Position numbers and translations under genes: made by a program
Shown: one piece after another, positions 5,412-12,125 of the stretch
Layout: every line of letters begins with the position of its first letter
Numbering within the stretch: position 1 is the first letter of the stretch
Assembly (NCBI GenBank): GCA_014763545.1
Contig: JACXVD010000030.1
Span: forward strand, 1 to 34,134
Origin: Sphingomonadales bacterium
Lineage (GTDB): Bacteria > Pseudomonadota > Alphaproteobacteria > Sphingomonadales > Sphingomonadaceae
Length of the DNA: 34,134 bases
Direction of reading: 5' to 3'
The notes under the pieces: generated by a model
Databases searched by the model: none
Told to the model about the DNA's origin: nothing
What the model saw: the letters and a program-made list of their open reading frames with translations, nothing else

Positions 5412-5513
5412 ATGACCACGCGCCGGATCGTTTGGCGCAGGCCGTGCATTCGACTAGGAAGCGCCCAAAGATTCGTTTCAGGAGTTACTTTGCCATGTCG
5501 ACAGTTCTGGTAA
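5412..5513 (+). other. Possible 33-codon leader ORF ahead of the polyamine dehydrogenase
   Basis: An ATG at 5412 preceded by GGAGTAGGA opens a short frame that ends in TAA at 5511-5513, 18 bases inside the dehydrogenase gene and out of frame with it. The peptide would be basic, with RRIVWRRP near its start. It could be a translated leader, as small ORFs precede some polyamine genes, or an accident of a GC-rich intergenic region. Nothing but the ribosome binding site and the overlap supports it. Confidence 0.2.
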
Positions 5514-6706
5514 TCGGTGCCGGCGGCGTCAGTTCGGTGTGCGTCCACAAGATGGCGATGAACGCCGATATTTTCAGCGATATCCACCTTGCCAGCCGCA
5601 CCAAGAGCAAATGCGATGCCATCGCCGCCAGCGTGATGCAGCGCACCGGGCAGACGGTTGCGACCTATTCGATCGACGCCGAAGAAGTGCCCGCGATGGT
5701 CAACCTCATCCGCCAGGTGAAGCCCAGCCTCGTGGTCAACCTCGCGCTGCCGTACCAGGACCTGCCGATCATGGACGCCTGCCTCGAAGCGGGCGTGAAC
5801 TATCTCGACACGGCGAATTACGAACCGAAGGACGAGGCGAAGTTCGAATACAGCTGGCAGTGGGCCTATCACGACCGGTTCAAGGCGGCCGGGATCATGG
5901 CGCTGCTTGGCTCGGGTTTCGATCCGGGTGTGACCAGCGTCTTCACCATGTGGCTCAAGAAGCACAAGCTGAAGACCATCCGCACGCTCGACATCCTCGA
6001 TTGCAACGGCGGTGACCACGGCCAGCACTTCGCGACCAACTTCAACCCGGAAATCAATATCCGCGAAGTCACCGCGCCCGCGCGCCACTGGGAGAATGGC
6101 GAATTCGTCGAAACCCCGGCGATGGGCAAGAAGGTCGAATTCGACTTCGAGGCGGTCGGCCCGAAGAACATGTACATGATGTATCACGAGGAGCTGGAAA
6201 GCCTCGCGAAGTTCAACCCGGAGATGGAACGCGCGCGCTTCTGGATGACCTTCGGCGATGCCTATATCACCCACCTTACCGTGCTGCAGAATGTCGGCAT
6301 GACCAGCATCGAGCCGATCAAGTACCAGGGCAAGGACATCATCCCGCTGCAGTTCCTCGCCGCCGTGCTGCCCAAGCCGGAAACGCTGGGCGAAACGACC
6401 CACGGCAACACCAATATCGGCTGCATCGCCACCGGCGAAGCGCTCGACGGGTCGGGCGAGAAGACGTTCTACATCAAGAACATCTGTTCGCACGAGGCCG
6501 CCTACGAAGAAACCGGCAACCAGGCGGTCAGCTACACCACCGGCGTCCCCGCGATGATCGGCAGCGCCATGGTGGTGCAGGGCATCTGGAGCGGCGAAGG
6601 CGTGTTCAACATGGAGCAAATGGACCCCGATCCCTTCATGGATATGCTCAACCAGCACGGGCTGCCGTGGACCGTGGAAGAGTTGGACGGGCCGGTGGAG
6701 TTTTGA
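5495..6706 (+). CDS. Carboxy(nor)spermidine dehydrogenase, saccharopine dehydrogenase family
   Basis: A 403-residue protein of the saccharopine-dehydrogenase fold. The N-terminal strand-turn-helix VLVIGAGGVSSV (4-15) binds NAD(P)H. The family condenses aspartate semialdehyde with putrescine (or diaminopropane) and reduces the imine to carboxyspermidine (or carboxynorspermidine). The segments NLALPYQDLPIMDACLEAGVNYLDTANYE and GFDPGVTSVF are characteristic of this branch. The ATG at 5495 is preceded by AGGAG at 5480-5484. The partner decarboxylase follows downstream, interrupted by the GxxExxY element, which settles the pathway over a lysine-metabolism role. Together they make spermidine without S-adenosylmethionine decarboxylase. 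Which diamine is used cannot be read from the sequence. The gene ends eight bases before the left inverted repeat. Confidence 0.88.
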   Translation: MSTVLVIGAGGVSSVCVHKMAMNADIFSDIHLASRTKSKCDAIAASVMQRTGQTVATYSIDAEEVPAMVNLIRQVKPSLVVNLALPYQDLPIMDACLEAGVNYLDTANYEPKDEAKFEYSWQWAYHDRFKAAGIMALLGSGFDPGVTSVFTMWLKKHKLKTIRTLDILDCNGGDHGQHFATNFNPEINIREVTAPARHWENGEFVETPAMGKKVEFDFEAVGPKNMYMMYHEELESLAKFNPEMERARFWMTFGDAYITHLTVLQNVGMTSIEPIKYQGKDIIPLQFLAAVLPKPETLGETTHGNTNIGCIATGEALDGSGEKTFYIKNICSHEAAYEETGNQAVSYTTGVPAMIGSAMVVQGIWSGEGVFNMEQMDPDPFMDMLNQHGLPWTVEELDGPVEF

Positions 6707-6714
6707 GTTTCTGG

Positions 6715-6740
6715 TTCTCGCAGAGACGCGGAGGAAAGAG
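6715..6740 (+). repeat. Left arm of 26-bp perfect inverted repeat
   Basis: The arm begins TTCTCGCAGAGACGCGG and continues with AGGAAAGAG. Its exact reverse complement occurs at 7162-7187. Adding the preceding GGT on both sides extends the match with one inserted T. It starts eight bases after the dehydrogenase stop codon and ends 21 bases before the GxxExxY start codon. Confidence 0.95.
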
Positions 6741-6761
6741 CGACAGCGAGAAGGACGCCTG

Positions 6762-7148
6762 ATGGAGATCGACGAGCTGTCGGGAGTGGTGGTCGACGAG
6801 TGCATCGCCCTTCACCGCGAGCTTGGCCCGGGATTGTTCGAGAATGTTTACGAAGCCGTCCTCGCGGGACGGCTTCAAAAGCGTGGGCTGAAAGTGGCGC
6901 GACAAGTCCCGGTGCCGGTGGAAATCGACGGCGAAATCTACGATCCGGCCTTTCGTGTCGATATTCTGGTCGAAAGCAGGCTCGTCCTCGAAATCAAGGC
7001 CGTCGAACGTCTGTCGCAAACCCACATCCGTCAGCTTTTGACTTATCTCCGGCTTCTCAGGCAGCCCGTCGGGCTGCTCCTCAATTTCTCCCACGGCACC
7101 ATGAAGGACGGCATTCGCCGCGTCGCAAACGATTACAACTCGCGCTAG
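6762..7148 (+). CDS. GxxExxY family protein (PD-(D/E)XK nuclease-like)
   Basis: A 128-residue protein with the family-naming motif as G24-LF-E27-NV-Y30. Further on it shows the pattern of a PD-(D/E)XK nuclease core: Asp67 in RVDILV, Glu77-x-Lys79 in VLEIKA, and Gln91 in the helix HIRQLLTYLRLL, followed by a VGLLLNFS strand. The family (PF13366/TIGR04256 from memory) is widespread, small and of unknown function. Codon use differs from the neighbours, with CTT, GTT, CGA, CAA and two AGG codons in a region that otherwise prefers G/C-ending codons, which suggests recent acquisition. The gene lies inside a perfect inverted repeat, between two polyamine genes with which it has no obvious functional link. 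Confidence 0.88.
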   Translation: MEIDELSGVVVDECIALHRELGPGLFENVYEAVLAGRLQKRGLKVARQVPVPVEIDGEIYDPAFRVDILVESRLVLEIKAVERLSQTHIRQLLTYLRLLRQPVGLLLNFSHGTMKDGIRRVANDYNSR

Positions 7149-7161
7149 CTTCTTTGCGTCT

Positions 7162-7187
7162 CTCTTTCCTCCGCGTCTCTGCGAGAA
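7162..7187 (-). repeat. Right arm of 26-bp perfect inverted repeat
   Basis: Exact reverse complement of 6715-6740. It begins 14 bases after the GxxExxY stop codon and ends 24 bases before the nspC start codon. In RNA the two arms could pair and enclose the whole gene, or each could be a protein recognition site. Confidence 0.95.
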
Positions 7188-7211
7188 ACCAACAAGGGCA
7201 CAGAAATAGTC

Positions 7212-8387
7212 ATGGAAACCAAAGCCGGCGATCCGGGGGCCTTTGCCCATTTCGATCTCAATCGCGTCGACAGCCCGGCCTTCGTGGTCGATGCGGCAAA
7301 ATTGCGCGCCAACTGCCAGGTGTTGGCCGACATTCGCGATGCTGCGGACATCAAGGTGCTGGCCGCGCTCAAGGCGTTTTCCATGTGGGTGACCGCGCCG
7401 ATCATCGGCGAATATCTCGACGGGGTTTGCACTTCGGGACTGTGGGAAGCGCGGCTCGCGAGTGAATTCTACGATGGCGAGATCGCGACCTATTGCGCCG
7501 CCTACAAGCCAGAGGACCTGGCCGAGGTCTGCCGCCTGTCGGACCATGTGATCTTCAACTCCCCGGGCCAGCTCACGCGCTTTGCGCCGGTGATCGAAGC
7601 AGCGCGCGCAGCCGGGCAGGATTTCGACATCGGCTTGCGGATCAACCCGCAAGTCCCGACCGGCGAGGTGCCGCGCTACGACCCGTCCAGCCCCGGTAGC
7701 CGCTTGGGCTTCCCGCTCGACCAGCTGACCGAGGAAGTCATGGACATGGTCGACGGGATCCATTTCCATAATCTGTGCGAGCAGGATCTCGCGCCGCTGC
7801 AGCAGACCTGGGACAGGGTGTTCGACGCGATCGAGCCGTGGTTCGGCCAGCTCAAATGGATCAACATGGGCGGCGGCCACCATATCACCCGGGCCGACTA
7901 CCAGCGCGAGGAACTGGTCGAATTCCTGCGCGATGCGAAGGACGACACGGGCGCGGAAATCTACCTCGAACCGGGCGAGGCGGTGGCGCTCGACGCCGGG
8001 ATCCTCGTGGGGACGATCCTCGATACCGGGTGGAACGGGGTGCCGGTGGCGATCACCGACATTTCCGCCACGTGCCACATGCCCGATGTGATCGAAGCAC
8101 CCTATCGCCCCGCCATGTTGCGCGAGGAACGGGGAGAGGGCGAGCCTGTGCGCCTGGGCGGCCCGTCATGCCTCGCGGGCGACATCATCGGCGATTATGC
8201 CTTGCCGATGCCCTGCCAGCCGGGCGAACGCTTCGCCTTCCTCGACCAGGCGCATTATTCGATGGTCAAGACCAACACGTTCAACGGCGTGCAGCTGCCC
8301 AGCATCTGGCTGTGGGACAGCGACACCGACCAGTTGGAGATGGTCAAAAGCTTCGGCTACGAAACCTTCCGCGACCGGCTGAGCTGA
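7212..8387 (+). CDS. nspC: Carboxynorspermidine/carboxyspermidine decarboxylase
   Basis: A 391-residue fold-type III (alanine-racemase-like) PLP decarboxylase. The PLP lysine is Lys54 in VLAALKAFS, and the WVTAPII that follows is typical of NspC rather than of lysA. Further family marks are GLRINPQ, the HFHNLCEQ segment, the glycine-rich GGGHHITR, YLEPGEAV and ITDISATCHMPDVIEAPYRP near the C-terminus. The enzyme removes CO2 from carboxyspermidine or carboxynorspermidine, the last step to the triamine. It would be co-transcribed with the dehydrogenase were it not for the inverted-repeat cassette between them; the ribosome binding site AAGGGC lies outside the cassette, so translation does not depend on the insertion. 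It converges with the DUF3137 gene. Confidence 0.93.
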   Translation: METKAGDPGAFAHFDLNRVDSPAFVVDAAKLRANCQVLADIRDAADIKVLAALKAFSMWVTAPIIGEYLDGVCTSGLWEARLASEFYDGEIATYCAAYKPEDLAEVCRLSDHVIFNSPGQLTRFAPVIEAARAAGQDFDIGLRINPQVPTGEVPRYDPSSPGSRLGFPLDQLTEEVMDMVDGIHFHNLCEQDLAPLQQTWDRVFDAIEPWFGQLKWINMGGGHHITRADYQREELVEFLRDAKDDTGAEIYLEPGEAVALDAGILVGTILDTGWNGVPVAITDISATCHMPDVIEAPYRPAMLREERGEGEPVRLGGPSCLAGDIIGDYALPMPCQPGERFAFLDQAHYSMVKTNTFNGVQLPSIWLWDSDTDQLEMVKSFGYETFRDRLS

Positions 8388-10919: not shown

Positions 10920-12125
10920 TTGCACATCTATCCTGACGCTCGGTCTGTAGTCCGCGACCTTTCGCCGGACGAGCCCGTAATCCTCAATCGCCCGCACGCC
11001 GCTGCGCGCGCTGCCCGCTTCTTTTCGCAGAAGTTCCCGGGCAAGTCGCTCTATGCCGTGAAGGCGAATCCCTCGGTCGACCTCATCGAGATCCTCTGGG
11101 CCAACGGGATTACCCATTACGACGTTGCCTCGATCACCGAAGTTCGCCTGGTGCGCGCCGCGCTGCCCGAGGCGGAACTGTGCTTCATGCACCCGGTGAA
11201 GGCCGAGCGCGCGATTGCCGAAGCCTATCACACGCATGGCGTGCGCACCTTCAGCCTCGACACGGTCGAGGAGCTGGAGAAGATCGTCCGCGCCACCGCC
11301 GCGGAAGACGGTACGGCGGCGAAGGATCTGCGCCTGTGCGTGCGCCTGCGCGTGTCGAGCGAATATTCTGAGCTGAGCCTTGCCTCCAAGTTCGGTGTCG
11401 ACCTGGCCGATGCCGGGCCGCTGTTGCAGGAAGCGCGCCAGCATGCCGACTGGCTGGGCGTGTGCTTCCACGTGGGCAGCCAGGCGATGACGCCGTTCGC
11501 CTATGTGCAGGCGCTGGAACGCGTGCGCGCCGCGATTGCGGACGCCAGCGTGGTGATCGACATGGTCGATGTCGGCGGAGGCTTCCCCTCGGTCTATCCG
11601 GGCATGGAGCCGCCGCCGCTGGAAGACTATTTCGAGGTCATCCACCGCCACTTCGAAAAGCTGCCGATCGCCTACAACGCCGAGCTGTGGTGCGAGCCGG
11701 GCCGTGCGCTGTGCGCCGAATACAGCTCCATGATCGTGCGCGTCGAAAAGCGCCGCGGCGAAGAGCTGTTCATCAACGACGGTGCCTATGGCGCGCTGTT
11801 CGATGCTGCGCATGTTGCCTGGCGTTTCCCGGTCGCTGCGCTGGAGAACGATCTCTACGGCGCCGACGAGGAATTCGCTTTCTACGGCCCGACCTGCGAC
11901 GATGCCGATTACATGAAGGGCCCCTTCATGCTGCCGGCGGACATCCAGGCCGGTGACTACATCGAAATTGGCATGCTTGGTGCCTATGGCTCGGCGATGA
12001 AGACCGGCTTCAACGGCTATGGCAATGCCGTGGCGGTGAATGTCGCGGACGAGCCGATGGCCAGCCTCTATCGCGGCGACCGCATCGACCCGCGCCAGAG
12101 CGACAATGTGGTGAGCCTGCGCTGA
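10920..12125 (+). CDS. Ornithine decarboxylase, alanine-racemase fold (type III)
   Basis: A 401-residue PLP decarboxylase that converts ornithine to putrescine, supplying the diamine for the carboxyspermidine route encoded upstream. Lys48 in YAVKANP is the PLP lysine, His184 in CFHVGSQ stacks on the ring, EPGR (259-262) binds the phosphate, and Cys326-Asp327 in GPTCDDAD are the catalytic pair contributed across the dimer. The specificity region before it (YGADEEFAFYGP) fits ornithine or ornithine/lysine decarboxylases rather than diaminopimelate decarboxylase. No ATG or GTG exists at the expected N-terminus; TTG at 10920 is the best start, after a GGGGG at 10906-10910. A structured leader precedes it, suggesting product control. 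It may also accept lysine. Confidence 0.92.
   Translation: MHIYPDARSVVRDLSPDEPVILNRPHAAARAARFFSQKFPGKSLYAVKANPSVDLIEILWANGITHYDVASITEVRLVRAALPEAELCFMHPVKAERAIAEAYHTHGVRTFSLDTVEELEKIVRATAAEDGTAAKDLRLCVRLRVSSEYSELSLASKFGVDLADAGPLLQEARQHADWLGVCFHVGSQAMTPFAYVQALERVRAAIADASVVIDMVDVGGGFPSVYPGMEPPPLEDYFEVIHRHFEKLPIAYNAELWCEPGRALCAEYSSMIVRVEKRRGEELFINDGAYGALFDAAHVAWRFPVAALENDLYGADEEFAFYGPTCDDADYMKGPFMLPADIQAGDYIEIGMLGAYGSAMKTGFNGYGNAVAVNVADEPMASLYRGDRIDPRQSDNVVSLR

Follow-up and report, generated by a model that had tools for sequence, protein, structure and literature searches.

The window, by which we mean the whole 34,134-nt stretch of contig analyzed here, contains a single gene of the GxxExxY family set between a saccharopine-dehydrogenase-like gene and an nspC-like gene. 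We take these two flanking genes to encode carboxynorspermidine dehydrogenase and NspC. The GxxExxY gene is enclosed by the two facing arms of an inverted repeat, and the features of this region are as follows:

5495..6706, + strand: upstream flank, saccharopine-dehydrogenase-like gene
6712..7191, + strand: whole element of ~480 bp, measured to the outermost ends of the repeat with one gap allowed
6715..6740, + strand: left arm, perfect over 26 bp and imperfect to 6753, built of tandem CRCNNAG-like units
6762..7148, + strand: GxxExxY gene, 128 aa, PD-(D/E)XK nuclease family (TIGR04256, PF13366)
7162..7187, - strand: right arm, perfect 26-bp reverse complement of the left arm, imperfect from 7149
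7212..8387, + strand: downstream flank, nspC-like gene encoding an Orn/DAP/Arg-decarboxylase-like protein

The stop codon of the saccharopine-dehydrogenase-like gene and the left arm are separated by 8 nt. A preliminary description of this DNA had reported 6715-6740 as the exact reverse complement of 7162-7187, one on each side of the GxxExxY ORF, and we confirmed this directly. If mismatches are allowed, each arm grows to 39 nt (6715-6753 and 7149-7187, 87% complementary) and a one-base gap carries the repeat outward to ~6712 and 7191. The other inverted pairs seen in the window were 70-88% complementary, with partners at least 1.8 kb apart. The element had also been said to lack a transposase, and indeed the PF13366 gene was the sole gene found between the arms. 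A single PF13366 copy was detected in the genome of the window, and the arm core occurred there in these two places only (15-mer search, one mismatch allowed). The preliminary description further claimed that codon use sets the ORF apart from its neighbors. This was borne out in part only, with a GC3 of 0.73 in the ORF vs 0.79-0.86 in five other genes of the window and 2 AGG in 129 codons vs 0-1 per other gene. For the window copy, the codon argument is weak. In addition to nspC, the window appears to contain a second decarboxylase-like ORF (10920-12125).

The window ORF scored 120.9 bits against the TIGR04256 profile (cut-off 35) and 125.6 bits against PF13366 (PDDEXK_3; cut-off 22). Across 26 aligned rows, the invariant columns included G22, G24, E27, Y30, D67, E77, K79, Q91, Y95, N108, and F109, the first four of which are supplied by the GxGxxExxY stretch. 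We take these conserved residues to represent a PD-(D/E)XK core of the RecB/Cas4 type, the putative catalytic assignment following that of the superfamily. The PD-(D/E)XK-like core proposed earlier was borne out, since its motifs are intact and E27, D67, E77, K79, Q91, and Y95 are invariant in the 26 rows; judged by alignment, the GxxExxY nuclease retains its full putative catalytic set. Weak profile matches to RT-associated PDDEXK and Cas4 were consistent with the RecB/Cas4-like reading. Among proteins of solved structure, the relatives were weak Bax1 matches only (E 0.53), which also fit this reading, and an AlphaFold model built from two sequences was uninformative (mean pLDDT of 46.9). Identity with a defence system was considered and rejected, as PADLOC gave weak matches only (best E 0.00066). 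Finally, the GC content of the GxxExxY gene was below that of its upstream flank in all 108 loci with enough flank (median difference of -10.8 points).

We then asked how often GxxExxY genes lie between facing arms, as the preliminary description had proposed, using the best inverted repeat between the 90 nt upstream and the 110 nt downstream of each gene (score of at least 16). This frame was present at 103 of 119 loci. None of 595 controls in which the downstream piece was letter-shuffled reached this score, and neither did any of 110 pairs of flanks taken ~600 nt away. The 119 loci comprise 85 from the order together with Parerythrobacter lacustris, which has four GxxExxY genes, and genus g64 (five GxxExxY copies come from g64 loci), 30 from the best-scoring genomes of other Pseudomonadota, and four from plasmid records. 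Besides the window and G034, they take up 70 places of the genome search; the remaining places, some complete and some partial, were excluded, as was the partial weak match L006. The frame was found at 81/85, 19/30, and 3/4 loci of these groups, respectively, and two of the three framed plasmid loci are from Bacteroidota (Bacteroides and Bernardetia). Eleven of the 16 genes that were frameless at our threshold belong to the 30 loci of other Pseudomonadota. The framed elements are uniform in size, with a median of 465 nt from outer end to outer end (5-95% range of 443-505, n=103).

The arms consist of a tandem degenerate 7-mer, CRCNNAG, present in two to four copies per arm (usually three when read by eye) at a spacing of 8-9 nt. 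The commonest units were CGCAGAG, CGCGGAG, CACGAAG, CGCAAAG, CGCGAAG, CACAAAG, and CGCCAAG. Arm similarity averaged 24.5 within a locus, 17.7 between loci of the same site, and 11.5 between sites. Because the arms of all loci share units, the upstream piece of one locus often also scores as an inverted repeat with the downstream piece of an unrelated one (median score of 15 and 95% point of 26 for 220-nt pieces). The preliminary description had held that an arm unique to the window locus would speak against a mobile element. The exact arm of the window in fact recurs in a gene-less pair of P. lacustris, which stands upstream of a gene read as ssb, and arms of the window type also surround the GxxExxY gene in G034 and G346.

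A plasmid vehicle and a phage origin were considered and rejected. GxxExxY was detected in 5 of 72,556 plasmid records, four of which supplied the plasmid loci above. We found no match in 50,697 phage records; in IMG/VR, an alignment query returned one contig, which is framed, and a single-sequence query returned no match.

The gene-bearing elements occupy a narrow range of genomic positions. The upstream neighbor was codirectional in 92 of 100 loci, as judged from the strand of the longest nearby ORF, and the arm starts a median of 4 nt behind its stop codon. One junction, annotated as fabD-fabG in L257, is common to 31 loci with homologous flanks. The junction of the window accounts for 12 loci and two others for 10 and 9. 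Only 19 site changes were counted on the gene tree vs 71.3 in shuffles, and the clade of a gene therefore mostly follows its site. In addition, conservation is mostly lower in the GxxExxY gene than in the flanking DNA: the median difference was negative in all six site groups, with flank identities taken crudely from the longest matching ORF. The match of clade to site and the faster divergence of the gene are both patterns that mainly vertical descent would produce, and they count against a mobile reading. They could indicate an old resident gene accompanied by terminator-like hairpins, inherited vertically and frequently lost, whose gene-less pairs would be relics or ordinary palindromes. 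Against such descent, separate clades share a site: the junction of the window is occupied by two separate groups of the gene tree and another junction by several.

To see the junction of the window in relatives, we surveyed the best 30 nspC loci in the family. The cassette was present between the dehydrogenase gene and nspC in two of these loci, the window and G034 (46-nt frame). Eight loci presented an empty junction in which the stop and start codons overlap (TGATG), so that the empty site sought by the preliminary description does exist in relatives. Other sequence of 61-1350 nt filled the junction in fourteen loci, and the occupants of 436-1350 nt (L015, L018, L020, L024, L026, L030, L036, and L038) carry ORFs that appear unrelated by eye. 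The six remaining loci had no dehydrogenase gene upstream in the stretch examined. Taken across these relatives, the dehydrogenase-nspC junction looks like an insertion hot spot.

Flank homology assigned 12 of the 119 GxxExxY loci to this same junction, eleven by both flanks and the locus of P. lacustris (L144) by one. Relative to the window, the 1.08 kb upstream of the P. lacustris cassette are 89.9% identical at the DNA level vs 67.0% for the cassette gene. The corresponding identities of upstream flank and cassette gene were 86.0% and 80.6% for G034, 83.2% and 78.4% for G346, and 81.7% and 64.9% for G218. The closest flank is thus associated with an unlike cassette gene, and it is therefore very likely, from these identities, that cassettes have been exchanged at the junction of the window.

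Further evidence for movement came from other sites. At the nadB 3' junction of genus g64, the cassette was found in 8 of 30 loci examined out of 60 genomes. In L224 and L226, this junction is empty with 13 bp left, and the element plus a few bases makes up the whole difference between these loci and L216; the other nadB loci contain other sequence or have no alignable right flank. The cassette at nadB is reversed in G755 and forward in L051 (the G314 copy) although the flanking genes are the same in both, and the two copies are sisters in the gene tree (support of 96/74). At a second junction, which we read as rph-rdgB, 5 of 30 loci examined out of 60 genomes, query included, carried a gene-less element, and the aligned flanks lie at most 12 nt apart in 13 of the 30. 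The gene-less core of G741 is inverted relative to that of G778 (score of 37 when inverted and 13 the same way, for a shuffled maximum of 13), and the arm cores of the two are identical over 23 nt. By eye, no target duplication was seen when filled and empty sites of nadB and rph-rdgB were compared between species of the same genus. The arms at rph-rdgB are of the CACAAAG, CACGAAG, or CGCGAAG type and near-uniform inside one element, so that the units of both arms have changed together. Possible causes are selection for matching arms, gene conversion, and replacement, any of which would suffice. A different palindromic repeat, of the GGACTTGATCC ... GCCGGATCAAGTCCGGCATGACGA type, occurs at the rph-rdgB junction in L301, L302, L306, L312, and L315.

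Across these genome comparisons, mobility of the element is well supported. The reading as an old resident gene is already disfavored and seems to us very unlikely: it does not account for the empty sites, the inverted copies, the incongruence of cassette and flank at the window site, or the abundance of arms in one genome (G132) and their absence from a congener (G024). A purely regulatory or terminator role of the hairpins was likewise rejected, as it leaves the empty sites, inversions, and spread without an account.

We next searched 296 genomes of the order for arms irrespective of the gene. The strict pattern required three units at a fixed 8-nt spacing and counted each overlapping match; arms spaced differently, including those of the window, escape it. 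It was matched in 75 genomes, and the genome of the window gave no match. The reversed pattern, used as a control, gave 0 matches for most genomes and at most 8 (G321). The pattern was present in 46 of 55 gene-positive genomes vs 29 of 241 gene-negative genomes (970 vs 135 matches). G132 presented 172 arm matches and eight GxxExxY genes, and its congener G024 had neither an arm match nor a GxxExxY gene. The arms of GxxExxY genes also tended to resemble the gene-less arms of their own genome (mean of 22.5 vs 16.8 for other genomes; Wilcoxon p 1.7e-4), although neither this value nor the Fisher value for gene and arms takes account of kinship. This comparison covered 33 gene loci from 27 genomes, with 3-25 gene-less segments each and few sampled for some. 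The own-genome match was beaten by no other genome for 14 of the 33 loci, by one to three genomes for 6, and by at least 7 of 26 for 13.

Gene-less elements measure ~70-230 bp overall and have a short non-coding core. All 12 arm matches of G079 form facing pairs, one around the gene and five around ~100 nt of non-coding DNA, and the gene-less cores of this genome contain inner GCGGCGAAGCCGC-like palindromes. Seven arm pairs within the initial 400 kb of G132 form compact hairpins of ~69 nt. Some elements are nested (L275, L265, and L164, the last from G346), and those of L274 are interleaved. The outer right arm of L164 is of the window type (2 mismatches in 27) and its left arm appears by eye to be a diverged copy. 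Many gene-less cores (L196-L203, L008/L009) have small GC-rich hairpins of the GCGGCGAAGCCGC / GCGGCTTCGCCGC form, and such hairpins also occur alone near other elements.

These observations bear on two ways in which the gene and the arms might be related. One is that the GxxExxY nuclease itself acts on the arms. The main rival is carriage by another enzyme: some other host or mobile enzyme would move or amplify the arm elements, and GxxExxY would be cargo captured between arms, with a possible role in protection or resolution. Some genomes rich in arms do lack the gene. Eleven gene-negative genomes had at least four arm matches (among them G151 with 27, G096 with 24, and G002 with 13), so GxxExxY is not needed for arms to persist. 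Most arm pairs are also gene-less in the genomes examined closely (5/6 in G079). Moreover, the unrelated S23 four-helix-bundle protein occupies a like frame. At three loci (L247, L248, and L249), S23 genes outside rRNA lie within inverted repeats whose tandem 7-8-mers are of different types (GGCAATA, GCAACGA, and GGAGTGAGGGGTCA). Because S23 shares such a frame, the frame may be a generic vehicle. These three were read among eight S23 loci, most others being partial matches, and their frames may represent a parallel element class. On the other side, the frame is near-constant for GxxExxY, the association between gene and arms across genomes is strong, and gene arms tend to match the gene-less arms of their own genome. 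S23 itself was rejected as the driver of the arms: TIGR02436 was searched for and not found in G151, G096, and G002, it was present in one (G127) of nine arm-bearing gene-negative genomes searched, and S23 frames use other units. Overall, we consider transport of GxxExxY as a passenger rather unlikely.

A further explanation is that the element works as RNA. The arms would pair in the transcript and the hairpin would be excised, for example by RNase III, as in rRNA intervening sequences; insertion into an operon would then be harmless and the protein would act on RNA or be idle. The anatomy of our elements is close to that of the intervening sequence (IVS) of Coxiella 23S rRNA, which has 428 nt, one small ORF, a 28-bp terminal stem, and tandem heptamers (PMC4990558). 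The window element folds as one long hairpin (z -6.2), as its arms predict, and the elements lie inside operons, mostly codirectional with the preceding gene. In contrast, mismatches between arms presented no clear G-U bias (117 wobble-compatible vs 96 incompatible transitions, p 0.17), no Rfam match was obtained in ten loci, and RNA cutting alone would leave the spread, the empty sites, and the inverted copies unexplained. We therefore regard the RNA reading as improbable.

On balance, we lean, if not strongly, towards the window element being one copy of a minimal mobile family in which the GxxExxY nuclease acts on the arms and MITE-like gene-less derivatives exist. Support for this reading is entirely comparative, with no excision, cleavage, or transposition seen; the comparison reveals the frame and its generality, empty sites, orientation change, copies that lack the gene, and, in near relatives, unlike cassettes at a single site. 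The small self-contained element envisaged in the preliminary description is likewise supported by the near-constant frame, the recurrence of the arm, and the empty junctions. An element consists of facing arms plus either a GxxExxY gene (~465 bp) or a short non-coding core (~70-230 bp). Gene-bearing elements insert immediately after stop codons and use a restricted range of operon junctions; elements can take either orientation, and gene-less ones also nest in one another. The nuclease would recognize the arms and cut at or near them, perhaps as duplex, cruciform, or single-strand hairpin. The resulting break, or the hairpin at the arms, may lead to excision, inversion, or insertion of its own element, or to its copying by repair. 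Gene-less elements might be mobilized in trans through the same arms. This scheme would parallel the action proposed for TnpA-REP on REPs, with an unrelated enzyme, and we know of no case of transposition by a lone PD-(D/E)XK domain.

A bolder version of this proposal, to which we give somewhat less than an even chance, is that these elements form a self-contained class. Its sole protein would be a 125-residue RecB/Cas4-like nuclease working on mirror arms of tandem octamers, moving or inverting its own element and gene-less copies in trans, while the arms change in concert and give rise to lineage dialects. If this were true, the S23 frames would make the nuclease element one of at least two such classes, and rRNA intervening sequences would be a special case of such elements.

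The open-licence literature that we searched, in which subscription journals are mostly uncovered, yielded no account of these arms or of GxxExxY genes lying between them. The passages of this literature that name GxxExxY do so only in passing, and no function for these genes was found in the literature searched. The element family is apparently widespread and undescribed; we rate the element class as new, with the nuclease as its predicted agent. Bacteria commonly carry short palindromic repeats for which no driver is known. The repeats would here gain a candidate enzyme and the GxxExxY family a candidate job, and the result would be a mobile element that has one small nuclease and lacks a recognized transposase. 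The contrast between G132, with 172 arm matches, and its congener, with none, makes this link directly testable.

Several known systems share some of these features. Insertion sequences have terminal inverted repeats, one gene, MITE derivatives with like ends, empty sites, and both orientations, and some of them also leave no target-site duplication. Our elements resemble them in the terminal inverted repeats around one gene, the gene-less derivatives, the empty sites, and the two orientations. They differ in that no recognized transposase family is present, target duplication was not seen, the arms are composed of degenerate tandem units that vary between elements, and the range of sites is narrow. 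Free-standing homing endonuclease genes are small nuclease genes at fixed sites, with a patchy distribution, occupied and empty alleles, and transfer to the same site. The shared sites and the gene-flank incongruence of GxxExxY elements are compatible with such behavior, but these elements are not in introns or inteins, and they present long inverted repeats and gene-less copies elsewhere. TnsA of Tn7 and RecB/Cas4-like nucleases share the PD-(D/E)XK catalytic core with GxxExxY. TnsA partners the DDE transposase TnsB, whereas GxxExxY is the only gene between its arms.

The likeness to the rRNA IVS with S23 lies in the size, the single small ORF, the long terminal inverted repeat, and the tandem heptamers (PMC4990558). 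Unlike that IVS, GxxExxY elements are flanked by protein genes, stand behind operon stop codons rather than in rRNA genes, encode GxxExxY and not S23, and have many gene-less relatives. REP/REPIN sequences with TnpA-REP (RAYT), or REPtrons, are described in PMC8266576 as dispersed, many-copy palindromes with a chromosomal gene that is flanked by and matched to the repeats and whose presence tracks their abundance. Dispersed palindromic elements, an associated gene flanked by them, the correlation of gene with abundance, and the match of gene to repeats are thus common to both systems, as is the near absence of the gene, for GxxExxY, from plasmids and phages. In contrast, the REPtron has a GTAG-tagged hairpin of 20-50 nt where the GxxExxY element has facing arms of tandem 7-mers (no GTAG tag before the hairpin was noticed in arms read by eye), and its protein is an HUH Y1 transposase instead of a PD-(D/E)XK nuclease. 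Moreover, the GxxExxY gene sits in a mobile and sometimes inverted frame and reaches several copies in some genomes (eight in G132). REPtrons, the rRNA IVS, and insertion sequences with their MITEs each have a defining feature that was sought in the GxxExxY elements and not found.
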